From IMG/VR virus record IMGVR_UViG_3300033182_000595, positions 16,763-80,762 of that record: a stretch of 64,000 nt of DNA, one strand, 5' to 3'. Position numbers and translations under genes: made by a program. The DNA comes from a virus. The notes under the pieces were generated by a model that was not told the DNA's origin, did no database searches, and saw nothing but the letters and a program-made list of their open reading frames with translations. Numbering within the stretch: position 1 is the stretch's first letter; every line of letters starts with the position of its first letter. This document shows positions 4,228 through 26,244 of this stretch, piece by piece.

Positions 4228-4453
4228 AGAGTATTCAATCTACTCGGAGAGATTTAAGCGTGAAGTCGATAAAGCGCATCGTGACTTTTTTGAAAGGCGT
4301 GGTATTCCACTCCATAGTCTTGATGGCGATTTTATCTTCGGAACCAAGGAGTTTAGGAGGCATCGTGCAAATAGCCTTTCGTCGTTTCCGTTCGAGAATG
4401 ACCTACCCATTTCGCAATCTTTTCAAGTGAAGAATTATAGTCCTCCTTATTAA
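4211..4453 (+). CDS. Small basic protein, 80 aa, overlapping the integrase 3' end
   Basis: Chosen ATG 4211 (MGKKTEEYSIYSERFKREV) lies within the end of the previous gene; an in-frame ATG at 4145 would overlap it much more. The first about 47 residues look like an ordinary helical phage protein; the last third runs antisense into the tyrosine recombinase that ends at 4353. Convergent overlap of about 100 bases suggests the recombinase gene arrived next to, or cut into, this gene. Confidence 0.5.
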   Translation: MGKKTEEYSIYSERFKREVDKAHRDFFERRGIPLHSLDGDFIFGTKEFRRHRANSLSSFPFENDLPISQSFQVKNYSPPY

Positions 4454-5393
4454 CACGGGAGACAAACGAGTGCCTGAATGAGTGGAAGCTTTTCCCTTCG
4501 ATCTCCATTCGGTTAAGAAATCTAGTAAAGTAAACACTGAACCTTGATCTTTTGTTTGGATCGCTGATTACCTCAGCCCACTCAGGAAAGCAATACCTTG
4601 AATCATTCTGTTCGATCTCGGTGATCGTCTTGCGAAGCAAGCCACCACCAATCAATGGATTGTCATAGGGTAGGGCGACCCTTGTGTCCGTCTTCTCTGT
4701 CCAGACATTCAAGTGATCCTCTCCCCATGAGTCCCACTCTAGCTTGCATACATCTACTGCACGCAGTCCTGTCCACCACCCAAGCGTTACGGCTTGCTTA
4801 AAGAAGTATGGAGCGTGTGCGACCATCTTCTTGTAATCTTCCTTGGTGAATGGAACTCTCTGCCTAGTCTCTTTTTGCTTGTGTGATAGTCGGCTCGCAT
4901 CCACCCGCACGCCAGCAGATGGATCGGTAAGAATGTAGCATTTTGCTACAGCAAAGTTTAGCATACTACGAATAGCGGCAAGCCTCTGATTCCTAGAGTT
5001 TAAGTTTACATCACACTTCTCATTGATGTAGTTAAAAATATGCTCTGATGTGATATCAGATAGCTTTCTGATGTTATTAAAGTTTGCGAACTTCTCCAGT
5101 ACAGTGACCTGAGTGTAGAGAGTATTGGCAGATTTGCATCTAACCATGGAATGCTCCTTCCACTCAGATATACACTCAGCTATGGTGAGATCGTCGTCGG
5201 CTAACATAAGAGTAAGGACATCACGATTTGCTTTCTTCTGCTTTATTAAAGACTCAGTAAGCTCGTACTTCTTAGCCATACTCTTGGCTTCCTTTTGGTT
5301 CTTTGTCTCTAGTGATACCGTGCGGGTCTTGCCCGACATTGTTTTAAATCTTACAGAATAAGTACCTGTCCGATCGCTCTTAATTAACTTCAT
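4353..5393 (-). CDS. int: Tyrosine recombinase/integrase (first of two)
   Basis: 346 aa. An N-terminal SAM-like DNA-binding segment (about 65-150) is followed by the catalytic domain. Catalytic residues are visible: Arg in TGLRAVDVCKL, His-x-x-Arg in FHSFRHSFVSR, His in WVGHSRTETTKGY and the nucleophilic Tyr in GYLHDAS near the C-terminus. It performs site-specific strand exchange, typically for integration, excision or resolution. All catalytic positions are intact, unlike the second recombinase at 38781. A 22-bp palindromic element lies immediately upstream of its start, and no clear Shine-Dalgarno sequence is seen. No tRNA-like att core was recognised beside it. Confidence 0.93.
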   Translation of the reverse strand: MKLIKSDRTGTYSVRFKTMSGKTRTVSLETKNQKEAKSMAKKYELTESLIKQKKANRDVLTLMLADDDLTIAECISEWKEHSMVRCKSANTLYTQVTVLEKFANFNNIRKLSDITSEHIFNYINEKCDVNLNSRNQRLAAIRSMLNFAVAKCYILTDPSAGVRVDASRLSHKQKETRQRVPFTKEDYKKMVAHAPYFFKQAVTLGWWTGLRAVDVCKLEWDSWGEDHLNVWTEKTDTRVALPYDNPLIGGGLLRKTITEIEQNDSRYCFPEWAEVISDPNKRSRFSVYFTRFLNRMEIEGKSFHSFRHSFVSRVNKEDYNSSLEKIAKWVGHSRTETTKGYLHDAS

Positions 5394-5429: not shown

Positions 5430-6290
5430 TCAAACTAATTGTAATTGTACATCATTATGTACAACCCTGTCATGGAATCTAATTGCTGACTCTATTCTGT
5501 TTTTACTTTTCCTTGGCAGACCATCCATGCGATCCGAGAAGTCGTAAGCGAATGAGTCCGCTGAGTAGATCCTGTCCTTGATCCGTGAGTTCTTGAGTCC
5601 TGTCTGCTTGAATCCAAAGAGGTGTATCTTTGGTCTGTTCCCGCGGAAGCTCCACTCAAGTGTATCAAGTATCTCAGCTACAACCTCTGGGTTTTTATTA
5701 CGCTTACAAGTTGAGCCAATGCCCACCCATCTAGTGTCGAGTACTGTGCCCTTAGTTGAGTGCCTGTTTAAATTGCCGAACTTCATGTCGTAATCTGTAT
5801 CAAACCTTTTACTTAGTGCATTCTCATACATCTCAAGGTGTTGCTTGTAATCCTCAACCTCCCAACCCTGGAGTACTGGCATGACCGGAACACGCAGATC
5901 GTACTTGTCAGCCGCCTCAAGTATCTGCATGTATCTCTCAACTGTTTTGCGTTGGTGAATACGGACGGAAGCACGGATACCCTTGTCCTGTAGTTGCCTA
6001 ATGACATCGGGCTCGCACATATAGTCCTGTGTTACTATGCACTGCAAGTCACCACATAACTCAAAGTACTTGGCTACCAGTACATATTCCTCGGGAGACA
6101 TAATAAAGTCCCCATAGGTTGTAATCTGCGAGAACGCACCCGAGTCCATCATCCACCTACTAACAGACAAAGGATACTTCCTCTGCCTAAGCCTACCACC
6201 CTCATTCCTAACCAATGAGTTGGCAGATATCATAACATTACGCTTCCACGCATTGTTGTGTCGGTCTGTACCTACAAAGTACTCACGCAT
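5430..6290 (-). CDS. dpdA: DpdA/tRNA-guanine transglycosylase-like base-exchange enzyme
   Basis: 286 aa. Several TGT-superfamily landmarks are seen: WMMDSGAFSQ (active-site Asp plus substrate loop), VTQDYMCEPD, VPVLQGW, WVGIGSTC, IHLFGFKQTG and SADSFAYDFS, which aligns with the TGT segment carrying the nucleophilic Asp. Phage DpdA enzymes exchange guanine in DNA for a 7-deazaguanine such as preQ0, protecting phage DNA from restriction. This is shorter than tRNA TGT and has no C-terminal zinc-binding Cys cluster, as in DpdA. No folE, queC, queD or queE gene is present in the window, so it would need host preQ0 or genes outside. AAGGAGGT precedes the ATG. DpdA role is inferred; TGT fold is well supported. 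Confidence 0.72.
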   Translation of the reverse strand: MREYFVGTDRHNNAWKRNVMISANSLVRNEGGRLRQRKYPLSVSRWMMDSGAFSQITTYGDFIMSPEEYVLVAKYFELCGDLQCIVTQDYMCEPDVIRQLQDKGIRASVRIHQRKTVERYMQILEAADKYDLRVPVMPVLQGWEVEDYKQHLEMYENALSKRFDTDYDMKFGNLNRHSTKGTVLDTRWVGIGSTCKRNKNPEVVAEILDTLEWSFRGNRPKIHLFGFKQTGLKNSRIKDRIYSADSFAYDFSDRMDGLPRKSKNRIESAIRFHDRVVHNDVQLQLV

Positions 6291-6706: not shown

Positions 6707-7140
6707 GATGCTTGATTCCATCCGCAGTGCGGACATTCGATGTATTTGTTTTTCAATAGCTCACCAGGTGCTGGCTTGTAACCTGTTGATTTGATCTGAA
6801 TACCCGTAGCGAGTACACCTTGCCCTGTGATTGAGTGATTGCATTCAGGACAATCCATATCGTATTCCCCGATATAGCTTTCCTCCTTTTGCTCAATCCA
6901 TGTACCTCTACCAGTGAACATTGTGTGCAGAGTATCCGGAGTAAGCTCGACCATTTCTTCGGTGATCTTCCACTCGCCTACGGAGTTGCCATTGATATCT
7001 TTAAGTTTACCCGCTACCCATCCATCAAGTGGTGAGATCTTCGGGAGTAGTTGTTCTGTTAGTATGCGAGATAACTCGCCTGAGTTATGTTCGAATGCAC
7101 TATTGTCCATGCGAACCTCTAGGTTGAATGTTCGTTTCAT
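6703..7140 (-). CDS. Zinc-ribbon-like protein, 145 aa
   Basis: Two CxxC pairs are visible, CPEC at about residue 96 and CPHC at about residue 135, spaced as in a zinc ribbon with a long insert. The N-terminal 90 residues are not recognised. It overlaps the RadC gene end by four bases (ATGA). A nucleic-acid or protein-binding adaptor is plausible but unproven. Confidence 0.72.
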   Translation of the reverse strand: MKRTFNLEVRMDNSAFEHNSGELSRILTEQLLPKISPLDGWVAGKLKDINGNSVGEWKITEEMVELTPDTLHTMFTGRGTWIEQKEESYIGEYDMDCPECNHSITGQGVLATGIQIKSTGYKPAPGELLKNKYIECPHCGWNQAS

Positions 7141-7580
7141 TTTATTTGTAATAATTCTCTATCGCTGAATGAGTAATGCTTGCCGTGACCAATGATTACA
7201 TGATCTCGGACTGGTATCTTCAGTACATTGCCCGCTTGTACTAATTGTTTTGTTATTTGCAGATCCGCACTAGATGGCGTGGGATCTCCGCTTGGGTGGT
7301 TATGGCTCAGTATTACACCTGACGCACCTGACATAATAGCTGGTCTGAATACAATCGTGGGATTCAGTAAGCATGAGGACGCTAGTCCCGTAGACACTTT
7401 CTCCCGTGCGATTGGATAGAGCTTGGCGTTGAGCATAATTACCCACACTTGCTCTTGCATAGGGGCGTCATCGAATGCCCCCTCCATGTATTCAGCTACT
7501 CTGTTTGGCTCATCTAGCGGCCTATGTTCCATAATGCCAACCCGTTTGTATGTCTGTGTAGACTCGTATATAACCATCAT
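7137..7580 (-). CDS. radC: RadC-family JAB/MPN domain protein
   Basis: About 147 aa. It contains the metal-binding JAMM-type motif SHNHPSGDPTPSSAD (HxH with a downstream Asp), preceded by Glu in the VMLNAK region and followed by LKIPVRDHVIIG, the standard RadC signature. It lacks the N-terminal helix-hairpin-helix of chromosomal RadC, like other phage and plasmid copies. Family function is unsettled; JAB-fold proteins elsewhere remove ubiquitin-like tags. It is in the same operon as the E1-like, E2-like and ubiquitin-like PRTRC proteins, so it could serve as the JAB partner (inference). Start is ATG 7580 or 7577; GGAG lies just upstream. Confidence 0.9.
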   Translation of the reverse strand: MMVIYESTQTYKRVGIMEHRPLDEPNRVAEYMEGAFDDAPMQEQVWVIMLNAKLYPIAREKVSTGLASSCLLNPTIVFRPAIMSGASGVILSHNHPSGDPTPSSADLQITKQLVQAGNVLKIPVRDHVIIGHGKHYSFSDRELLQIK

Positions 7581-7849
7581 CTCCAAATTACTGGTAGTAT
7601 ATTGTGTTTATTAGTTGTTTTGTTATCTATGAATAATGCACCTCCATCGTTACCTTCGTCATCACTTTGCGGGATGACTACGATCTCTTCAGGAGTTTTG
7701 CCCATTCGTGGTTTCTTTAGGATCAGAGCAACAGGATTAGCGTGCCAGTCCTCGTCATCCATGTATTGGACATCGGTTATGGTGAAACCCACAAGTAACT
7801 TGCGAGCCTCACCATTCCAATAGTCCCTTATTTCTTTCTTTGTCTTCAT
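7577..7849 (-). CDS. Unknown protein, 90 aa
   Basis: ATG 7849 overlaps the helicase stop as ATGA, and the 3' end overlaps the RadC start. The sequence MKTKKEIRDYWNGEARKLL continues into a beta-rich segment with VALILKKPRMG. No family recognised. Confidence 0.72.
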   Translation of the reverse strand: MKTKKEIRDYWNGEARKLLVGFTITDVQYMDDEDWHANPVALILKKPRMGKTPEEIVVIPQSDDEGNDGGALFIDNKTTNKHNILPVIWR

Positions 7850-10413
7850 AAAGTTACCTCCTCTTTGTTCGTGATAGTCAGGAAGTTCTTCTTGAGATCC
7901 TCCCACTTGCGTAACAAGTAGTCCTCGCCATCCTCTGCACCTGTGGCACTTGGATCATAGCCAGTGACATGCTGAGCAAGTAACTCATCCTCGCTCATCG
8001 TCTTGACATCACGGGGTACTCGCTTGCCGTACAGGCAGATCGTGGCGGCATCCTCCTTGTTGCCCAGCTTGTCGAACATCAACTCCTCGATGGAATTGCG
8101 ATGCAACATGACATACACATTGACATCCTCCTTGGAGGTTAGTCGATAGATACGACCAAGTGCCTGGTTGAACACACCATACGACCACTCAAGGCAACCG
8201 ATGATAAGATTCTTGCACTGCTCAAAGCTGAACGCTTGGGCACACTTGATACCCATGAGAAGCACAGGAACTTCTCCATCCTTGAACTTGGCGGCTTCCC
8301 GTGCCTTGTCCTCACGCTCACCATCAATCCTAGCGTACTTGATACCCACCTCACTCAATCGCTCAGCGATCTCGTTGGTCATACCATGACGGGCAGACAC
8401 ATGAATGATTTGTTCACCCTTGGATACATGATGGTATATCTTCTCCATACACATAAGTACCTTGGGGGTGAAGTTGGACTTGCTGTACATATTGTACTTT
8501 GAGCCGGAAGGATCACCGCAAATACCACGCAAGTATTGCATCTGCACACCATACCTGAACCTAGCATCATCCACAGGGATGTTGGCTGGATCCATGAAGT
8601 GCATGTAATTCATCCGTTGTTGCTGAGTCATTGGTACACGAATCTCGTACACATTGGACTTGGGCATATTCGGATTGCACTGAATCTTGCTGATGAATGA
8701 TACCGTTGGACGCAGTAGCTTGAGCAACTTGGCGGGCTGACTGATCGTGGGTGAAGACTTGAGATAGCTAGGACCACGACCCGTCTCCTTGTGTATCTGT
8801 TGCAAGGTATGGTCACGCTCCACGGTCATGAACTCAGTCTTGAAGTCACCGATCTCTCCAAGCTTGTAAGGCCAACGAGGGTTCAGTCTGTTGCCATGAT
8901 ACCAGTCAGGTACACACAACCAACCCATGAGAGAGAAGATGTTGAATACCATGTTAGGTATAGGAGTGGCAGACAGGGCGAACTTGTACTTGGGTTGCAA
9001 GCGTATGAAGTTACGAGTGATCTGCGAGTCAAGATTACAGATGAGATGTGCCTCATCGAGGATGACCATATCCCAGAACTTGTGACCGATCTCGGTAGCC
9101 AAACATGGTGTGTCGATACACTTGATCGCATGCTTGTCACCAGTTGGCTCACCCAGGTTGTGAGTATGAACCTCACCATCAACTATGCTGTAAGTAGCAT
9201 TGGTGGTGTCATACAGATCATAGGTGCGGGTAGTACCAAGACCGAAGTGGTAGTTGATAACATCCCGATTGCCCCACTCGTCATGTAAGGGAGGTACGCG
9301 AAACTTACGCTTCTTGAGATCCTTGCGATACAACTCCTCGGTGTCCTTCTTGGCTGAGTACCATGTGCTAGGCAACTGCTCTGTCCCACTACGGAACATC
9401 ACATGGTCATAGGTAAGGAATACACCATGAGGTAACTCACCACCATGTAGCTTGATTAAGGCATCATAGTCCTTGCGTGAGAATAGCTTGTACACAGGAA
9501 CATCTGGTGCAAACTTAGCGAACTCCGATGTCCATTGTGATGGCTTAGTGACCTCACCACCTTTGCCTTGCGAGTCCTTGACCGTACCCTTTGGGGCAAC
9601 AATCAGTACACGACCCGACATCTTGAGGATGACAAGACAGATAGCAATGAGTGTCTTACCGCATCCCGTCTCGGCTGAGATGAGAGCAGACTCGGCACAT
9701 GCTGACTGAGCGACATACTTCATCTGACCAGGGAAGAACTTGAACTCACCCGCTACCTCCATGTGTTGGAGGATCTCCATAGCCATGTTGTACTCGTCCT
9801 TGCGTTCCTCCGCTAGGGTAGGGATCACAGGCTTCTCGAAGTACTCCCATATCTTGGACTCATCAATGTCCTGGTCGATAGTAGGATGGTCACGGAAGTT
9901 TACCTTCCAACCTCTGTCGTCCGTGGTGGTAAGAGCAAAGTCCTTACCCTCAAGCGACATGTCATGTATCTTGGATGATACTTCCTTGGACTCCTCATTG
10001 AAGTGCATCTTCATCTTGGTGAAGGGCTCAATGTAACCAATGGCACGGGAAGTGAACTTGTACACCTTACCCTTGGTAAGCTGTAGGTTCTCCTCGTCCA
10101 CATCTTGGACACATGTGAGTTCACGCTTCTCATCAACATAAGCGATCTTCTCATAGTCGGTTGGCTCACGAAGGGGGCGAGCTATCCGTACTGAGGATTT
10201 AAGAGCTGCATCAATCAGCTCAGTTGCTTCTGGACTAACGAGACATGTCTTGTGGCTCATTAGCTTTTGGAGGCGTTGCCGTTCGCTTAGTGCTACCACT
10301 AGCGACATCGGTGTCCTCCCACCAACCAACTGCAAGTCTACCTTGATGTCGGATGGTGCATAGTCTGGATATGCGACGAGCTTGCCGTCACGCTCCTCTA
10401 TGTCATACTGCAT
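7846..10413 (-). CDS. SNF2/DEAH-like superfamily 2 helicase
   Basis: 855 aa. Walker A ETGCGKTLIAI at about residue 248, Walker B/motif II ILDEAH at about 450, motif III SATPIPN at about 487, then a C-terminal helicase lobe with HVSARHGMTNEIAERL and motif VI QALGRIYRL. This order matches SNF2-like ATPases that translocate on double-stranded DNA. The first about 230 residues are a phage-specific N-terminal region. It sits between the PRTRC E1-like gene cluster and RadC, with a 55-aa gene overlapping its start, so it is translationally linked to the ubiquitin-like system. Role in replication or recombination is inferred. Confidence 0.9.
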   Translation of the reverse strand: MQYDIEERDGKLVAYPDYAPSDIKVDLQLVGGRTPMSLVVALSERQRLQKLMSHKTCLVSPEATELIDAALKSSVRIARPLREPTDYEKIAYVDEKRELTCVQDVDEENLQLTKGKVYKFTSRAIGYIEPFTKMKMHFNEESKEVSSKIHDMSLEGKDFALTTTDDRGWKVNFRDHPTIDQDIDESKIWEYFEKPVIPTLAEERKDEYNMAMEILQHMEVAGEFKFFPGQMKYVAQSACAESALISAETGCGKTLIAICLVILKMSGRVLIVAPKGTVKDSQGKGGEVTKPSQWTSEFAKFAPDVPVYKLFSRKDYDALIKLHGGELPHGVFLTYDHVMFRSGTEQLPSTWYSAKKDTEELYRKDLKKRKFRVPPLHDEWGNRDVINYHFGLGTTRTYDLYDTTNATYSIVDGEVHTHNLGEPTGDKHAIKCIDTPCLATEIGHKFWDMVILDEAHLICNLDSQITRNFIRLQPKYKFALSATPIPNMVFNIFSLMGWLCVPDWYHGNRLNPRWPYKLGEIGDFKTEFMTVERDHTLQQIHKETGRGPSYLKSSPTISQPAKLLKLLRPTVSFISKIQCNPNMPKSNVYEIRVPMTQQQRMNYMHFMDPANIPVDDARFRYGVQMQYLRGICGDPSGSKYNMYSKSNFTPKVLMCMEKIYHHVSKGEQIIHVSARHGMTNEIAERLSEVGIKYARIDGEREDKAREAAKFKDGEVPVLLMGIKCAQAFSFEQCKNLIIGCLEWSYGVFNQALGRIYRLTSKEDVNVYVMLHRNSIEELMFDKLGNKEDAATICLYGKRVPRDVKTMSEDELLAQHVTGYDPSATGAEDGEDYLLRKWEDLKKNFLTITNKEEVTL

Positions 10414-10570
10414 TTATCTGTATTTCAATAATTTGTGCATCTTTTAGACCTTGAGACTTAAGGTGCCGAAGTGCCCCCTCTGCCTCTGTCTTGGTGAATG
10501 TAATTGTTTCCTGTGTGTCGGAGTTGCACAAGCAGTGCCCCATGCAGGAAACCAGGTATCTAGTTATCAT
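10403..10570 (-). CDS. Small protein, 55 aa, between E1-like gene and helicase
   Basis: Starts at an ATGA overlap with the ThiF-like gene and ends 11 bases inside the helicase gene. It reads MITRYLVSCMGHCLCNSDTQ onward and has three Cys near the N-terminus. The second half (FTKTEAEGALRHLKSQGL) resembles a compact alpha/beta fold. No family recognised. Tight coupling on both sides makes it likely to be real. Confidence 0.65.
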   Translation of the reverse strand: MITRYLVSCMGHCLCNSDTQETITFTKTEAEGALRHLKSQGLKDAQIIEIQINAV

Positions 10571-11253
10571 TTTATTTTTATTGGGTTAGTGACCCCCTTA
10601 GTGAGGTCAAAGAATACGCCCTGCACTTCTAGTTTACCCCACCTCAGCAGGGACCATACGAAGTGCAAGGCATGGTTAGCTACAACACTATTAACAAAAA
10701 GGTCTTGTCTGAAAAATTGGTCTACGCAACCGGGCGACTCCTCCTCTGTTGGTTCGTCTCCATAGATTAAATCTGAATGTTCTTCATATATGTTTGGTAG
10801 ATCTCCCTTGTATTGTCCGATCAGTACTTGACCAGATGTCTGAGCATTACCGCAGTCGATCATGTATGTGCCTTCATTCTGCCACGACTTAGCTATTGCC
10901 TCACGGGACTTGACGGTATCGACACATGATATGCATAGATCCACATTGTCTCGTGATGGTGCTTTGCGTGGTACTGCCATCCAGTTGGTGCGGTAGTACA
11001 GATTGATACGCTGACACAATGTCTTAGCCTTGTTGTGACCGACATCTGATTCATAGAATGCCTGTCTGCCTACATTGCTATATGATACGATATCGGGATC
11101 GAATGCAGTAACATGGATGGGTGTCCTGTTTAGTACATGGAGTGCATGATTGATACGGGCAAGTCCGTTGAGTACATGACTACCCGTGCCTCCGCATCCG
11201 TACACTGATATCTTGTTAATCGTCTTGGTCGTGGTGTGCCCTGATCCACTCAT
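10567..11253 (-). CDS. PRTRC system ThiF-family protein (E1-like adenylating enzyme)
   Basis: 228 aa. The N-terminal Rossmann motif VYGCGGTGSHVLNGLARI (residues about 17-34), followed by AFDPDIVSYSNVGRQAFYESDVGHNKA, is the ThiF/E1 nucleotide-binding signature with its conserved Asp and Arg. CISCVDTVKSRE and MIDCGNAQTSGQVLIG match the family's later strands. The enzyme class adenylates the C-terminal glycine of a ubiquitin-like protein. It lies directly downstream of the PRTRC B gene, in the order known for PRTRC cassettes. A strong AGGAGGT precedes the ATG although the gene overlaps the previous one by 38 bases. Confidence 0.9.
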   Translation of the reverse strand: MSGSGHTTTKTINKISVYGCGGTGSHVLNGLARINHALHVLNRTPIHVTAFDPDIVSYSNVGRQAFYESDVGHNKAKTLCQRINLYYRTNWMAVPRKAPSRDNVDLCISCVDTVKSREAIAKSWQNEGTYMIDCGNAQTSGQVLIGQYKGDLPNIYEEHSDLIYGDEPTEEESPGCVDQFFRQDLFVNSVVANHALHFVWSLLRWGKLEVQGVFFDLTKGVTNPIKIK

Positions 11254-11863
11254 GTAGTGTTACCTCCTGTTGTTTGATCTTGTTGCGTGGGGTGGGCATG
11301 TAGTTGAACTTGCTGTTGTAGAAGCAAGCCTCCCACTCCCAATGAGCCATGACATCCAATGAGAATGCAAACTCTGGGTTGGGACGATTGACTGAGCAAT
11401 GCCCCATGACCCCGCCCCGTGGATGTACATCAATCCCACGATATGGAATCTCGTATATCTTGTGGTGCAAGTTTGGTCGCTCGTCTTTACTTGTTGAGTA
11501 GATAGCAATGTTGAGCGTGTCCTGGTTATTCTTACGCTTAACCATGAAGACGATGCCCGGATGTCGATACCATCTCTGTTGCTTGCTCTTCTGTGGATCT
11601 CGCTCACTGATTGTTATCTTCCGCTTACTTGGCGGGCTGTACCAGATCATGATTCGATCTTGATCGAACCAAAGCATTCGATTGTCATAGAATGCATAGA
11701 CCTCAGCCGTACACTCAGCGGGTAGTATCTTGTTGAATGAATCCCTGTCTACTGCCCGTGGGTTACCCCATTGGTCATCCTGTTTGTCGTACAATACTGC
11801 AACGGATTTACCGTCATCATCGTACACCATTAAGCTATGCTTAGCTTCAATTAAGTTGGTCAT
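11216..11863 (-). CDS. PRTRC system protein B (predicted E2-like)
   Basis: 215 aa. The segment YRHPGIVFMVKRKN, then KDERPNLHHKIYEIPYRGID and GGVMGHCSV, matches the PRTRC B pattern: PG-hF, a RP motif, then a conserved Cys. Family work places PRTRC B in a prokaryotic E2/UBC-like group lacking the classical His; Cys in GHCSV is the obvious candidate thioester residue. It overlaps F upstream by 17 bases and the E1-like gene downstream. E2 activity is a prediction for the family and has not been shown for this protein. Confidence 0.78.
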   Translation of the reverse strand: MTNLIEAKHSLMVYDDDGKSVAVLYDKQDDQWGNPRAVDRDSFNKILPAECTAEVYAFYDNRMLWFDQDRIMIWYSPPSKRKITISERDPQKSKQQRWYRHPGIVFMVKRKNNQDTLNIAIYSTSKDERPNLHHKIYEIPYRGIDVHPRGGVMGHCSVNRPNPEFAFSLDVMAHWEWEACFYNSKFNYMPTPRNKIKQQEVTLHEWIRAHHDQDD

Positions 11864-12800
11864 GACTTAGATATTTTAATAGTTCGTGGAATGGTTTGAA
11901 GCTCCCGATCATTGCTTCTGCTGTATCCAACTCGTGGCATTCGGGCATACATGTGCAGTCGCTAAACTCCTGCACCTCTGCGATCATATGATCTAGTATG
12001 AACCACGATGGATCCGTTGATTGTCCCATGTCGCCTGGTCTCCTCCTGACCTCTTGCATCCTCCTGTCTGGGCCGATGGCGAAGTTAGTATTCTCACCAG
12101 TTATGCGTGCCATGCGTCTTGTAATCATGGGGGAGAACCCATACCAAGAGCATACCGCAAATGGCCAAGTGGCGATGTCATCATCCCATCGGTCAGGTCT
12201 TTCCATCTCGCATACATTCTCCTTACAAGCACGGAGTAACCATTGTATGCGTGAAGGCATATTTTTAGGCACATCCATATTCTCAGGAGTTATCCAATCA
12301 GGGTAGAGCTTCTCGTTCTTCTCAGGGTATTTATCGCCATAATCCTCACTGTTACCCCACCAGTAGTGCAGGTAGTGAGTGAAGTCCCTCTCGATATCTG
12401 CGGGAGTAAGTATCCAGAACGGAGCATTGTCCAACAGATACATGATAAGAGGACCGACCCCGTATTGATTGTGCAACATCTCGCACCTCGGACCGATGGC
12501 GAACTTACGCTCGCATTGGTATGTGTTGAGGATAGGGTAGTTCCCTCTCTGACCAGTTACATATTCGATCTGTAAACCGAATGCATTATTGCCCAATACT
12601 TGATGTAGTACATCAGTAAGGTATGGATCAACCGCTGGGTCTCTCTGTACCTTTCTTTGTATTGTGCCATCTATGCGAATGAACTGAGGCAGAGCGTCAG
12701 GTGTTTCTAAAAGAGGGGAGGCACGGAGCGAGGGGACAAGCTTCCGCTCCCTTTCAAACGCGAGACATTCTTCATCACTTGGAATGATAACCGAAACCAT
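11847..12800 (-). CDS. PRTRC system protein F candidate
   Basis: 317 aa. No catalytic motif is seen. It is called by synteny: it occupies the slot between proteins C and B where PRTRC F normally lies, is close to the usual length, and has the Trp/Tyr-rich middle (FTHYLHYWWGNSEDYGDKY). Start ATG 12800 is seven bases after the C gene. A search with the PRTRC F family profile would decide. Confidence 0.6.
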   Translation of the reverse strand: MVSVIIPSDEECLAFERERKLVPSLRASPLLETPDALPQFIRIDGTIQRKVQRDPAVDPYLTDVLHQVLGNNAFGLQIEYVTGQRGNYPILNTYQCERKFAIGPRCEMLHNQYGVGPLIMYLLDNAPFWILTPADIERDFTHYLHYWWGNSEDYGDKYPEKNEKLYPDWITPENMDVPKNMPSRIQWLLRACKENVCEMERPDRWDDDIATWPFAVCSWYGFSPMITRRMARITGENTNFAIGPDRRMQEVRRRPGDMGQSTDPSWFILDHMIAEVQEFSDCTCMPECHELDTAEAMIGSFKPFHELLKYLSHDQLN

Positions 12801-12806
12801 TGCTCG

Positions 12807-13061
12807 CTACCCTTTAGTTCCGTAGTTCCCTTTGAGTTCGTAGGTTGCGGATGGTCCTTTGCCTTCGAGCTTCCACTCTTCTTTTTCGTTTTGATAATAT
12901 GGTCCTCCTATCTCTCCCTTGGTAAGGGATGGGTATTGTCTACTATACAGATCCATTACTTCTTCTGGTGACATGTGTCTGCCGGGATCGGGCAGGATGC
13001 GTCCACCAAACTTGAACACTCGTTCAACTTCCTTTAATCCCTTTTGCTGTGCTTCTGACAT
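12807..13061 (-). CDS. PRTRC system protein C (ubiquitin-like protein)
   Basis: 84 aa from ATG 13061, which has AGGAG ten bases upstream; an in-frame ATG at 13112 lacks a site. The core VERVFKFGGRILPDPG, then MSPEEVMDLYSRQYPSLTKG, then a closing beta segment is the PRTRC C signature, a family assigned to the prokaryotic ubiquitin fold. The protein ends exactly in GNYGTKG, so a terminal glycine is exposed as required for adenylation by an E1. No processing peptidase would be needed. It is flanked by protein E and protein F and is the likely modifier of the cassette. Confidence 0.85.
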   Translation of the reverse strand: MSEAQQKGLKEVERVFKFGGRILPDPGRHMSPEEVMDLYSRQYPSLTKGEIGGPYYQNEKEEWKLEGKGPSATYELKGNYGTKG

Positions 13062-13188
13062 ACTTTCTTTTCTCCTGTTTTGGTCCTTGTACTCTAACTT
13101 GTAAGCCATCATAGAAGTGGTCTAAGTGACCACCCCGCTTGACTTGTAGCATTTCGTCTTTGGTTAATTGAATCAGTATTCTCTTCAT
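13024..13188 (-). CDS. Small basic protein, 54 aa, overlapping the ubiquitin-like gene start
   Basis: ATG 13188 overlaps the stop of PRTRC E as ATGA. The ORF (MKRILIQLTKDEMLQVKRGG onward, ending KGIKGS) runs 38 bases into the PRTRC C gene in another frame. No family recognised. Coupling upstream suggests it is translated; the long overlap leaves doubt. Confidence 0.45.
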   Translation of the reverse strand: MKRILIQLTKDEMLQVKRGGHLDHFYDGLQVRVQGPKQEKRKYVRSTAKGIKGS

Positions 13189-13817
13189 AAAACCTCTAGG
13201 TCATCTAAACCGAATGGATCTTCCTCCTTTGTTTCTACTGCTGTAGCGATAGCCTCAGCCTCCTCCTCTGCGGTAGGCTTCTGAGTCACACGCTCAACTG
13301 CTTTCTCTGCGGCGGTCTTAAGCTCAGCCTTGTTCTTGACTGGTGTCTTCTCCACCTTTGGTTCTTCCTTCTTCTCGCCCAAGCGATCCTCATTCTCATC
13401 GAATAGACTGGCTTGACCCTCACGCTCCTTGGCTTGCTTTGCTCGAGCTTCATCCATCTCTTGCTTCTTAGTCTTACGAGGTGCAGGCTTAGCCTTGCCA
13501 TTGGTTGAACGCTTGGTAGCTGGCTTCTTCTTTTCCTCCACACGCTTCTTGATCTCGTTCTCGATATCCTCGATTGCAGTTGTGCCTTCGATGAGGACAT
13601 TGGAGTAGTGATGTATGTCAGCAATCAGTGCCTCGTCTGAGTACTCAGATAGTGGGTAGCTCTTGAACAAGGGACGCTCCAGTACCTGTTGGTCTTTCTC
13701 ATCCAGCTTGTCATTAAGTACCTTGGGGATCACATATATGTGTAGGTTGCTGTCCTTAATCTCCGTGCGGAAATCAAGCCTGTGTGTCTTGAGTAGTGGT
13801 ATAAGTGAGTTAATCAT
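13185..13817 (-). CDS. PRTRC system protein E with long charged tail
   Basis: 210 aa. The first about 75 residues (MINSLIPLLKTHRLDFRTE, then LHIYVIPK) fit the PRTRC E start: a short helix, two strands and a VIPK motif, followed by a PLFKSYPLSEYSDE segment. The rest is a Lys/Glu/Ala-rich, probably disordered tail ending FGLDDLEVL. The acidic hydrophobic end is reminiscent of SSB-type docking tips, which is speculation. It is the first gene of the E-C-F-B-ThiF series. Confidence 0.75.
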   Translation of the reverse strand: MINSLIPLLKTHRLDFRTEIKDSNLHIYVIPKVLNDKLDEKDQQVLERPLFKSYPLSEYSDEALIADIHHYSNVLIEGTTAIEDIENEIKKRVEEKKKPATKRSTNGKAKPAPRKTKKQEMDEARAKQAKEREGQASLFDENEDRLGEKKEEPKVEKTPVKNKAELKTAAEKAVERVTQKPTAEEEAEAIATAVETKEEDPFGLDDLEVL

Positions 13818-14094: not shown

Positions 14095-15101
14095 GAAAAT
14101 CTCTTCAATATCTCTGCCTTAATCATCTCAGGTACCTTACCCAGTGCATTCTTCATGAAGTCGGTGAGCTTCTTGATCGCATCACCATGCTTACTGAGCT
14201 TAGCCTCGATCTCTGTCAGTCTCTCCTCAAGTGACTCATCGGTAGCGGGACCGACTACACCACGAGCGAGATCCTCGATTGCCTCACGCAAACGAATGAC
14301 AGGATGTGGCTCTTCCGGGTCAGATTGCCTATCCTTGGATTGATTCTGCTTCAACTCATTGATGGTATCCTTGTACTCAGAGAGCTTGTCCCTGAACTCC
14401 TCGAAGTTCTTCTGAGCTAGCTTGATTGCATTCATCAATGGAACAACAGGAGGAGTACCAACCTTCTCATTGTAGTGAACAAGTGCATCCAGTTGCCAAT
14501 GCAGGGGATTGTCACCAATGCCAACTATGCTACGCTTGATCGCTTCGATCTCTTCCTCCTCGCCAGTCTTAGTGAATGTCTGAGGACTTGCATCCAACGC
14601 AGGGGCAGTCTCTTTCTCCGTGTCAATGACCACACCTTCAACTGGTTGCTCAGCTTCTGGCTCGTCGTCCGTGATAGTCATATCCAAGTCGCCCACATCT
14701 TGATGCTCATCAATACCAGAATCAGAGCTTGGGGTAGGGGAGGATGACTTGGGCACACTGCTGACTTGATCGAACTCACCACTCTCTAGCCTGTCGATCC
14801 ATCCTTGCATGGTCTTACACTTGATGTCCTGAAAGAACTCCTGTCTCTCGGATGGCTCACGGGGTACATCAGCGGGCTTGTCCCCGTCCATTGGCCAGTG
14901 AGGATTTGGTGTACCATCATGTAGTCGTGGCTTGTTGAACTTCTCACCCCCGAGGTCAGCCACATAGTATGTGAAGGTGAGACATGAGGGATCGAGAGCC
15001 TTGATACATTGGGTATTGAATGCGGTGATTGCCGCATCTCCCCCTCGTTCCTGTGTTCTCTTCTCCTGAATTAGTTTTTGTAGTTTATTAGACAATGACA
15101 T
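14091..15101 (-). CDS. Unknown protein, 336 aa, acidic linker and C-terminal coiled coil
   Basis: ATG 15101 was chosen because AAAGGAGA lies just upstream and it overlaps the clamp-loader gene by only 14 bases; the open frame extends further to 15242. The N-terminal about 110 residues look folded, the middle is Ser/Pro/Asp/Glu-rich, and the C-terminal third is a long helix (LEERLTEIEAKLSKHGDAIKKL). No family is recognised. Position between a clamp loader and PRTRC E suggests a scaffold or adaptor role, which is only inference. Confidence 0.68.
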   Translation of the reverse strand: MSLSNKLQKLIQEKRTQERGGDAAITAFNTQCIKALDPSCLTFTYYVADLGGEKFNKPRLHDGTPNPHWPMDGDKPADVPREPSERQEFFQDIKCKTMQGWIDRLESGEFDQVSSVPKSSSPTPSSDSGIDEHQDVGDLDMTITDDEPEAEQPVEGVVIDTEKETAPALDASPQTFTKTGEEEEIEAIKRSIVGIGDNPLHWQLDALVHYNEKVGTPPVVPLMNAIKLAQKNFEEFRDKLSEYKDTINELKQNQSKDRQSDPEEPHPVIRLREAIEDLARGVVGPATDESLEERLTEIEAKLSKHGDAIKKLTDFMKNALGKVPEMIKAEILKRFS

Positions 15102-15786
15102 TTTGCTGTCTCCTTTGTTTGATTTTGTGAATAGTGATTGCTTTTTGTACTTCCTTGAGTGTGTGCCGGATATCTCCGTTGCCATTCTTGGCACAAACAA
15201 GAGCCGCCTTGTGAGGGATCTTGCATAGTCGAACAAGCTCATTGGCTACTTCCTCCGTGGATAGAGTTTTGATCTCAAACCACATGAATCTGCTTGAGAA
15301 CTTAGGTGTTAGGTGTTCGTCTTTCTCTGACTTGGACATGGCATCCCACTCCTCCCGACGGCATGGCTTCTTGTTAGTGGTAACAATAACCAGGTAATCG
15401 GATGGTAGCTCGTCCTGTAGCCAATCATGTAGGCAGTCCTGTACATCACGATGGATGTTATCCACTTCATTGATGACAATCGCACGGCGAGTACCATGCA
15501 TGGGTAACATGTGACTACTGTAGATCATCTCATCCACAACAGACTGAGTGACCTTAGTACCCTTATGTACGAATACATTAGACTCATGGTCAGCGTACTT
15601 GTTAGCCGCGAATGTAGCTATAGTAGTCTTGCCTCTGCCCTCAGCACCATGAATTAGAAAACATCGCTCCCCCATTGGGTTACATGCTTCTTCGAGAATG
15701 CAGTCGTAGTGCTGTGCGGTTGTGTCACCGATGATTTCTTCTGGTGTGGACGGGCGCCATCTTGCCCAATTAGTATTGTTTTGCAT
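15088..15786 (-). CDS. Clamp-loader-like AAA+ ATPase
   Basis: 232 aa. NWARWRPSTPEEIIG matches the start of RFC-small-subunit or DnaX-type proteins. Walker A HGAEGRGKTTIA (about 44-55), Walker B AIVINEVDNI (Asn in place of the first acidic residue), sensor 1 VIVTTNKK, and a C-terminal lid with FEIKTLSTEEVANELVRL and NGNGDIRHTLKEVQKA, matching the GDxR sensor-2 region. Such proteins open a ring clamp for loading on DNA. No clamp or DNA polymerase gene is seen in the window, so partners are outside or from the host. Confidence 0.82.
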   Translation of the reverse strand: MQNNTNWARWRPSTPEEIIGDTTAQHYDCILEEACNPMGERCFLIHGAEGRGKTTIATFAANKYADHESNVFVHKGTKVTQSVVDEMIYSSHMLPMHGTRRAIVINEVDNIHRDVQDCLHDWLQDELPSDYLVIVTTNKKPCRREEWDAMSKSEKDEHLTPKFSSRFMWFEIKTLSTEEVANELVRLCKIPHKAALVCAKNGNGDIRHTLKEVQKAITIHKIKQRRQQNVIV

Positions 15787-16290: not shown

Positions 16291-16961
16291 TTGAATCTAT
16301 ATTTAACCTCCATATCCATGTTTAGTGATTGCTTGCGTTGTAGCTTGTACTGAGCTGACGCATCCTTAACGACTACGCCCTCCCATATTCCTTTGCGGTC
16401 GCTATCCATGACATCGTTCATGAGCATGATCGCACTCTCGCTTGCATACATTTCCTTGTACATGGACACGACTGCCTCAGTCGTCCTGGCAACAGGGAAT
16501 ACAAACGCAGTAAGCGGATCCTTTATCGTATGACTACGCTCGATATCGTACCACTCATGTGTTGCACATAGAGCAAAGGACTCTCGGATCGAGCAATGCG
16601 GGTAGAATTGTTCATAGAGCTGTCTGCGTTCGTGATAGTTGCGATATCGGATACCCGACTCAGTAACATCAATGATTACAAACTTACCCTTGTTCTTACC
16701 GCAGTGCATATACTCCATATCCACCCAGTCCACATACTTAATGGGAGAGAGTAGGGTGCGTATCCTAGCCTTGTCCCCATCATCCATGTAGGTGTACTTC
16801 TGGCAGTGGCGATTGTAGAACTCCTTGGTATGACAGCAGTACAATACCCTGTGACCATCGAGCTTGGGTGTAGCAATCTCGGTAGATAGTAGCTTGAAAT
16901 CCCGTGGCAACTCCCCCCCGCCCGTTGGACGAGAGGGATAACCTACTGTTGAGACCATCAT
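16287..16961 (-). CDS. DNA ligase-like nucleotidyltransferase domain
   Basis: 224 aa. Motif I PKLDGHRVLY supplies the KxDG lysine (about residue 33) that is adenylylated in ATP-dependent ligases. DMEYMH resembles motif III, EGVVVKDASAQYKLQR is a clear motif IV, and MEVKYRF matches motif V with its lysine. Only the nucleotidyltransferase domain is present, with no OB domain after motif V, so it is a minimal ligase or a related capping/adenylylating enzyme. ATP dependence is inferred from the family. Confidence 0.8.
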   Translation of the reverse strand: MMVSTVGYPSRPTGGGELPRDFKLLSTEIATPKLDGHRVLYCCHTKEFYNRHCQKYTYMDDGDKARIRTLLSPIKYVDWVDMEYMHCGKNKGKFVIIDVTESGIRYRNYHERRQLYEQFYPHCSIRESFALCATHEWYDIERSHTIKDPLTAFVFPVARTTEAVVSMYKEMYASESAIMLMNDVMDSDRKGIWEGVVVKDASAQYKLQRKQSLNMDMEVKYRFK

Positions 16962-17680
16962 CTACCGAAAGCCATGGTCATAGGGACCAGGTCATTGAGT
17001 TTTTGATCTTGTTCTACGGTCAGCTTGGTGCCACGAGCCTCATGGAACGCTGAGTTTGGTTGATTGTATATCTTCCATGTGATGACATCGAACTTACGAT
17101 TCCCATCCGCATCGGGCGGGCATACATAGTCGTTGATCTCATCAAGGAGACTACACACAGGATCTTCCTTCTCCGTGGGAACAAGAGAGAAATCCACCGA
17201 TGCCTCGATATGTGTAGTAATATAAGCATCAACGAACTCCTGTCCGACAATCTCAACCACTTCCTCAAGGGTATTGTCATCGAACTTCCCGTATCCATCC
17301 TCCTTTACATTAACTGTAACAGTATGCTCAATGGGCACACTAATTACATCACCGATATCCAGAGCCTTACCAGTATCCACATCCTCCTGTGTAGCTTTAC
17401 GCTTAACAGTTAGATTAGCAGTGTACTTGAATTGCTTGGGTCTGTTCGCACTACGATCTTGTAGTAGGGTAGTGGAGATCTTCTTGTACAACCTCCGAGC
17501 CCGTCCAAATAGACCCTCGCCTTTCTTCTTCAGCTCTCTGCCTTGGTAGTGGCACTTAACCAGATCGTGTATATCTGTATCGCCCTGTACCGTGACACAT
17601 TGTATGCGACTTCCCGAGGATGTTTCTTCCTTGGGTTTAGTCTCTTTCTGTTGTTGTCTTCTTTGTGCTAGCTTAGACAT
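16958..17680 (-). CDS. Unknown protein, 240 aa
   Basis: Basic, Gln/Lys-rich N-terminus, then beta-rich segments (KYTANLTVKRKATQED; ISVPIEHTVTVNVKEDGYG). No family recognised. Overlaps the ligase-like gene by four bases. Confidence 0.7.
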   Translation of the reverse strand: MSKLAQRRQQQKETKPKEETSSGSRIQCVTVQGDTDIHDLVKCHYQGRELKKKGEGLFGRARRLYKKISTTLLQDRSANRPKQFKYTANLTVKRKATQEDVDTGKALDIGDVISVPIEHTVTVNVKEDGYGKFDDNTLEEVVEIVGQEFVDAYITTHIEASVDFSLVPTEKEDPVCSLLDEINDYVCPPDADGNRKFDVITWKIYNQPNSAFHEARGTKLTVEQDQKLNDLVPMTMAFGR

Positions 17681-25289: not shown

Positions 25290-25398
25290 TAAAGTGGGAT
25301 AAATTTGAAGGAGCCATTCAGGGTGATGGATGCAGTGCTACTATGGAACTTATGTTTACTGGCGCAATCGTGATTGGATTGGAGATATTAGCGAGGGG

Positions 25399-26244
25399 AT
25401 GATTAATGTACTATCATTAGGAGCGGGTGTGCAGTCATCCACAATGGCGTTAATGGCGGCAAAGGGTGAGATTACACCGATGCCTGATTGTGCGATTTTT
25501 GCGGACACGCAAGCAGAACCTGACTCTGTTTATGAGTGGTTAGATTGGCTTGAGAAAGAATTACCATTTCCTGTGTATCGGGTAACGAAGGGTGATCTTA
25601 CAAAAGACTGCTTAGAACCAAAGGTTAGGCAAAATGACTCAAAGAATGGTAAAAAGGGAAGCACTTATATTAAGTCGATCATCCCAAAGTTTGGTATATC
25701 AGAGGATGGAGAAGTAAGTGCCGCAATAGGTAGAGCTTGCACACAGGACTACAAAATTCGCCCAATCCATAATAAGATCAAAGAATTGTTTGGGATTAAG
25801 CGTGGCGAGAAAGATGTCAAAGTAATCCAATGGATTGGTATTTCATACGATGAGATTCAGCGGATGAAGGAGTCTCGTGACAAATGGTGCGAGAATCGTT
25901 GGCCGCTTATTGAGATGGAAATGCAAAGACATCATTGCAAACAATGGATGAAAAAGCATGGTTATCCTGAGCCTCCGAGATCTGCTTGTTATTATTGTCC
26001 GTTTCATAGTGATGAAGAGTGGAGGAATCTTCGTAATGAAGAACCTGGGTATTTCCAAAAAGCAGTCGAATTTGATAAGCAGTTAAGGTCACAGCATAAG
26101 AAATATGCACCTGAGTTGCGGATGTCTGTATACCTCCATCGCTCATGCAAACCACTTGATGAGATCGACTTTGATTCTGACGAGGACAAGGGCCAACTCA
26201 CATGGGATTTTATGGCCGAGTGCGAAGGAATGTGTGGTGTATGA
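25399..26244 (+). CDS. PP-loop (PAPS-reductase-like) enzyme
   Basis: 281 aa from ATG 25399; the frame is open to 25330. SLGAGVQSSTMALMAAKG at the N-terminus is the PP-loop ATP-pyrophosphatase motif (SxGxxSS). IFADTQAEPDSVYEWLDWL, ACTQDYKIRP and SACYYCPFHSDEEW add conserved Cys residues that could bind a cluster or zinc. Phage members are usually labelled phosphoadenosine phosphosulfate reductase, but the family also includes DndC-type DNA phosphorothioation proteins. Sulfate reduction is doubtful here; nucleic-acid modification is an equal possibility. The adjacent nuclease overlaps it as ATGA. Confidence 0.82.
   Translation: MINVLSLGAGVQSSTMALMAAKGEITPMPDCAIFADTQAEPDSVYEWLDWLEKELPFPVYRVTKGDLTKDCLEPKVRQNDSKNGKKGSTYIKSIIPKFGISEDGEVSAAIGRACTQDYKIRPIHNKIKELFGIKRGEKDVKVIQWIGISYDEIQRMKESRDKWCENRWPLIEMEMQRHHCKQWMKKHGYPEPPRSACYYCPFHSDEEWRNLRNEEPGYFQKAVEFDKQLRSQHKKYAPELRMSVYLHRSCKPLDEIDFDSDEDKGQLTWDFMAECEGMCGV

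Follow-up and report, generated by a model that had tools for sequence, protein, structure and literature searches.

A diverged PRTRC cassette without a JAB peptidase in a tailed phage and its possible part in ubiquitin-like modification at replication forks

The DNA examined here, called the window, is a stretch of 64,000 nucleotides corresponding to bases 16763-80762 of an 80,762-base-pair virus record (IMG/VR record IMGVR_UViG_3300033182_000595). It carries five consecutive minus-strand genes of the PRTRC type (NCBIfam TIGR03734-03742), ordered E, C, F, B and ThiF, with F assigned by position. A preliminary description, made from the sequence alone, had placed the genes in this order and over this span, and the present analysis agrees:

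13185..13817, minus strand: E, 210 amino acids (aa), by homology to the E proteins of relatives
12807..13061, minus strand: C, 84 aa, ubiquitin-like, over the cut-offs of PF14454 Prok_Ub and TIGR03738
11847..12800, minus strand: F position, 317 aa, located between C and B
11216..11863, minus strand: B, 215 aa, E2-like, over the cut-off of PF14460 Prok-E2_D
10567..11253, minus strand: ThiF, 228 aa, E1-like adenylating enzyme, TIGR03736 over cut-off, PF00899

Large terminase and portal genes on the cassette's own contig identify the carrier as a tailed phage, possibly a temperate one given the tyrosine integrase (PF00589) at 4353-5393 on the minus strand, which is kept in the lineage. This lineage comprises seven records (the window, L004, L005, L014, L015, L016 and L017). 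Six of them, namely the window, L004, L005 and L015-L017, form the window's ThiF clade, while L014, whose contig breaks off within the cassette region, joins by sequence (67% identity). Gene order of the cassette is kept in the related contigs and the ratio of nonsynonymous to synonymous substitution rates (dN/dS) is 0.10-0.20 for E, C, F and B (about 0.1-0.2 where computable, dS being near saturation), as observed under purifying selection. Together with the profile scores given below, preserved order and low dN/dS exclude chance: the cassette is real, conserved and under selection.

The ThiF protein passed TIGR03736 with 200.7 bits (cut-off 144.75) and contains the GCGGTGSH motif (GCGGTG loop) from which the preliminary description had recognised an E1-like enzyme. 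A sequence search of the PDB with the single window ThiF gave no match. The family profile matched the solved E1s UBA6, UBA3, UBA1, Cap2, ThiF and MoeB, which include adenylation domains from the ubiquitin, NEDD8 and SUMO pathways and that of Cap2 from the cyclic oligonucleotide-based antiphage signalling system (CBASS; 7tsq, 6e-7). On sequence grounds, ThiF is an E1-type domain with the adenylation fold and a conserved Cys. This residue, Cys176, is invariant in 171/171 homologues and, from its place within the E1 family, is a candidate for the thioester Cys.

B reached 56.6 bits with Pfam PF14460 Prok-E2_D (cut-off 25) and stayed below the cut-off of TIGR03737 (49.5 against 131.45). In an alignment of 160 homologues, the canonical Asn and Cys of the family, corresponding to positions Asn143 and Cys152 in window B, are present in all 153 proteins outside the lineage. 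The canonical Cys is found in 0/7 lineage sequences, and Asn is missing in six and retained by L014. All seven carry instead D-[VT]-H, a conserved Gly and a Cys two residues past this Gly (D-x-H...G-x-C), which are D145, H147, G154 and C156 in the window, the Cys being four residues on from the canonical position. The preliminary description had pointed to an E2-like protein with a Cys in GHCSV; this Cys is indeed present and invariant within the phage lineage, although it does not occupy the canonical Cys position of the family. For B, dN/dS is about 0.13. An AlphaFold2 model of the protein (mean predicted local distance difference test score, pLDDT, 84.9) had low confidence in the D-x-H...G-x-C region, so that the relocated Cys is a tentative structural equivalent of the canonical one, and it gave no usable structural neighbours and no significant match, E2 folds included.

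C passed both TIGR03738 (52.1 bits, cut-off 45.95) and Pfam Prok_Ub (56.1 bits, cut-off 25). The sequence AGGAG lies 5′ of the ATG of the 84-aa protein, and a longer open reading frame begins at 13112. As described earlier, C ends with an exposed Gly in GTKG (...GNYGTKG), and the Gly position is conserved among homologues. A sequence search of the PDB with the single C protein found nothing significant. Its AlphaFold model, beta-beta-alpha-beta-beta with a mean pLDDT of 68.7, suggests a ubiquitin fold: many of the 50 listed PDB matches were ubiquitin, ubiquitin-like or PB1 domains, none of them significant.

We then compared the end of C with the presence of PRTRC A, the JAB peptidase of the family, whose JAB motif residues are invariant in 114/114 sequences. 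The survey took in loci where B and ThiF were both seen. In all 31 loci without JAB the encoded C terminates at the conserved position (Gly in 30, Ala in 1), whereas 83 of the 87 loci with JAB encode 1 to 114 residues past the Gly; the four exceptions have A but no tail. On the tree, A must have changed six times and the tail eight times; the association is strong, but its independence is limited. The pattern fits a role of A in trimming C to expose the Gly, which would be its simplest reading, lineages without A making mature C directly. Separately, the C proteins of Burkholderia-type phages (L002:4776-5165 and L018-L056) extend well beyond GTKG, and these long tails have in common a C-terminal segment, AHVCPLLDEE..., which may be a second domain that PRTRC A sets free.

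No curated model matched window E or window F. E genes at the corresponding position of L004, L005 and L016 pass TIGR03741 (43-49 bits, cut-off 37.95) and the window protein aligns with lineage E proteins at 31-38% identity; on this basis the window gene was accepted as E. The F-position protein has homologues within the phage lineage only, with 21-36% identity to its counterparts; TIGR03742 (PRTRC_F) matched in none of the lineage records, and the protein is called F by position only. The PRTRC profile assignments expected from the preliminary description were thus recovered for ThiF, C and B (the last by Pfam, TIGR03737 having failed), for E through its relatives, and not for F.

E proteins have an N-terminal domain in common, followed by a charged tail that varies between them and is rich in Lys and Glu in the window. 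The motif [SDNTG][LM][FYW] occurs in the tails of 30 of 40 nonredundant E proteins (2.6 in shuffles), and its form with Q in seven (0.3 expected), an excess that calls for retest on new loci because the motif class was picked after viewing the tails. Control motifs stayed at chance level (reversed, 2; permuted, 1). The window carries QASLF, and L004 and L016 carry QGDLF; for comparison, clamp-binding motifs of bacteria follow the consensus QL(S/D)LF and are typically C-terminal (PMC9690074). An acidic tail of the SSB type was also considered for E and rejected, no SSB-like C-terminus being found. Genes for the clamp DnaN flank the cassette in 10/87 nonredundant PRTRC loci, several of them from one Bacteroidetes-type group.

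The cassette of the window is a diverged, reduced PRTRC system. PRTRC A (TIGR03735) was detected in 0/7 lineage records and is present in the isolated Burkholderia phage BgVeeders33 and in the plasmid control. Similarly, PRTRC ParB (TIGR03734), the name-giving protein, was found in the plasmid control, and neither the lineage records nor BgVeeders33 gave a match above cut-off. A RadC-type JAB protein at 7137-7586 on the minus strand was examined as a replacement for A and rejected, as it has no homologue in the fetched flanks of L004 and L014-L017. The surroundings of the cassette contain the following features:

15088..15786, minus strand: clamp-loader ATPase (phrog_5846, phrog_168), upstream of the cassette
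13024..13188, minus strand: 54-aa open reading frame between E and C
10403..10570, minus strand: 55-aa open reading frame between ThiF and the SNF2 helicase
7846..10413, minus strand: SNF2-family helicase, 855 aa (PF00176, 63.9 bits), next downstream in lineage loci

The SNF2 helicase lies shortly 3′ of the cassette in all six nonredundant lineage loci and is probably its functional partner there. As a partner for the family as a whole it was rejected, since it is found in the lineage only. L177, which is more distantly related, encodes the helicase and no ThiF, which makes the cassette accessory. Clamp-loader homologues also lie upstream in L004, L016 and L017. The placement of the cassette in a phage replication block is borne out, in a genuine phage (terminase, portal) and beside a clamp loader and an SNF2 helicase. 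The ATG of the 54-aa frame overlaps the E stop codon and the frame also overlaps the 5′ region of the longer form of C; it had no match in Pfam, NCBIfam or PHROGs. The 55-aa frame is kept in relatives (47-53% identity in L014, L015 and L017).

Several other genes were recorded on these contigs. A 240-aa protein of unknown family (16958-17680, minus strand) has homologues whose place relative to the cassette varies: L014 and L017 have it after ThiF, L004 between E and C, and L015 upstream. Adjoining the integrase is a homologue of DpdA, a 7-deazaguanine DNA-modification enzyme (5430-6290, minus strand; PF23859, 108 bits), also encoded in L004, L014, L016 and L017, and a PAPS-reductase-family protein (phrog_424) is encoded at 25330-26244 on the plus strand. 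Just 5′ of E in L004 (4647-4916), a small protein looks by eye like sigma-factor region 4.

The preliminary description took PRTRC to be known mainly from plasmids, but its carriage by a phage is neither exceptional nor new in itself: at least 80 IMG/VR viral contigs carry PRTRC ThiF genes (121 matching stretches), and a terminase was identified with one model in 18/38 sampled PRTRC viral records, that of the window included. PRTRC matches occur in 373 plasmid records and in many more bacterial genome contigs. We found no report of phage PRTRC in the open-access literature (subscription literature lay outside the search). BgVeeders33 (OK665841), in which the cassette is unannotated, and its relatives of about 40 kb in IMG/VR have a complete E-C-F-B-A-ThiF set. 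Unlike the window, BgVeeders33 has A, a C that extends 62 aa beyond GTKG, a canonical B active site and a ThiF of a separate clade.

Compared with PRTRC of proteobacterial plasmids, for instance Cupriavidus taiwanensis plasmid I (L006), the phage cassette has homologous ThiF, C and B, the matching order E-C-F-B-(A)-ThiF and the conserved C-terminal GxKG of C. It differs by the lack of ParB and A, an F that is unrecognisable, an E recognised only via relatives, the relocated Cys and lost Asn of B, and the adjoining SNF2 helicase. Operons of such composition were described by Iyer et al. 2006 (PMC1779556), who predicted conjugation and found JAB always fused or adjacent. Their type 6d (ubiquitin-like protein (Ubl), alpha-helical protein, E2-like, JAB and E1-like), which from its composition is probably the same family as PRTRC, combines in a single operon, as the phage cassette does, a Ubl with a terminal Gly, E1-like and E2-like proteins and one more protein. 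However, type 6d has JAB and a conserved downstream His in its E2-like protein, and the phage lineage has neither. With the CBASS Cap2 and Bil conjugation systems the cassette has in common an E1-like adenylation domain that matches Cap2, and its proposed chemistry is of the same general kind. Unlike them, the present cassette is phage-encoded, has E1 and E2 as separate genes and has no nucleotidyltransferase or JAB; its PADLOC match to these systems was limited to the generic E1 domain.

We consider it an even proposition that the cassette is a PRTRC-type Ubl-conjugation module, independent of JAB, which acts in phage replication at forks. In such a scheme C would be produced mature, and since its Gly is already exposed no JAB peptidase would be needed. 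ThiF would adenylate C and then hold it as a thioester on Cys176, from which C would be handed to B, with Cys156 as the presumed transferring residue, for attachment to some protein at the phage replication fork. The machinery would be tethered to the fork by E, via its clamp-binding-like motif, and the adjoining SNF2 helicase may act in the same pathway. The nature of the target and the benefit to the phage are likewise conjectural. Both the E-tail motif and the genes around the cassette lend indirect support to the earlier suggestion that the system steers replication.

Several observations weigh against this scheme. Lineage B may have lost E2 function, since it no longer has the canonical Cys and, except in L014, the canonical Asn, which the other 153 proteins all retain. 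Neither an E2 nor a ubiquitin fold came up as a significant match in the searches with the B and C models. A tree-aware independent-pairs test of the association between JAB and the tail was not significant, the pairs being too few (2 to 6, two of them well supported). The E proteins of L015 and L017 have no clear motif, and models of the DnaN C-domain and of gp45 recognised no clamp gene in the phage; E would then have to bind the clamp of the host or one that escaped recognition. Finally, in the open-access literature (the subscription literature being outside the search) we found no PRTRC protein with a demonstrated activity and no functional study of PRTRC.

The changes in B also bear on two readings without conjugation. 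C could be a sulfur carrier, adenylated by ThiF and thiocarboxylated like ThiS or MoaD to feed a phage modification pathway, with B and F as accessories. Sulfur transfer is known for E1s of the ThiF superfamily, the phage has both the PAPS-reductase-family protein (25330-26244) and the DpdA homologue for base modification, and the canonical E2 residues are gone from lineage B. Nevertheless, purifying selection still acts on the E2-family protein, whose new Cys is invariant, and the cassette itself contains no rhodanese or sulfurtransferase. The co-occurrence of JAB and C tails in PRTRC fits a modifier, yet JAB proteins process some sulfur carriers too, and we regard this reading as unlikely, at about one chance in a handful. 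We give still less credence to a decayed cassette, in which B would be inactive and C and ThiF kept for another, non-conjugating interaction. Loss of the canonical Asn and Cys from B and divergence of F past recognition would agree with decay, but B has a dN/dS of about 0.13, the replacement D, H, G and C are invariant in all lineage members and reading frames are intact throughout.

Two further alternatives were weighed. Plasmid-type maintenance, that is, a partition or stability accessory of plasmid descent working with ParB, would agree with the ParB homologue that precedes the cassette in plasmids and many other loci (30/87 nonredundant). It is improbable to much the same degree as decay: lineage records and BgVeeders33 have no PRTRC ParB above cut-off, and the partner in the lineage is an SNF2 helicase. 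The preliminary description had itself proposed that the phage tags host or phage proteins, for example to disable a defence or steer replication; read as counter-defence or host takeover, C would be attached to defence or replication proteins of the host. Bacterial Ubl conjugation does serve phage-host conflict, as when CBASS Cap2 conjugates cGAS (PMC10097602). For the present cassette we found no evidence of such tagging or of a disabled defence: PADLOC gave a generic E1 match and weak SNF2 matches only, with no specific system. PRTRC is also common on plasmids (373 records), prophage-type contigs and chromosomes, beside partition or replication genes, a distribution more in keeping with maintenance of the element than with a role aimed specifically against defence. 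This proposal therefore appears improbable, if slightly less so than decay or plasmid-type maintenance.

PRTRC is common on plasmids and has no function assigned in the literature we found; the phage version offers it as a small system of few genes. The correlation between JAB and the tail of C provides comparative support for a Ubl maturation step in the PRTRC family, the E-tail motif points to a concrete candidate binding partner, and the relocated Cys would be an example of an active site that has migrated within an E2-like protein. As a speculation that we think is probably wrong as a whole, PRTRC might be a system by which mobile elements direct Ubl modification to the sliding clamp, much as PCNA is modified in eukaryotes, with an SNF2 (Rad5-like) protein as partner; the phage lineage would then have an irreversible, JAB-free form with a relocated E2 cysteine.

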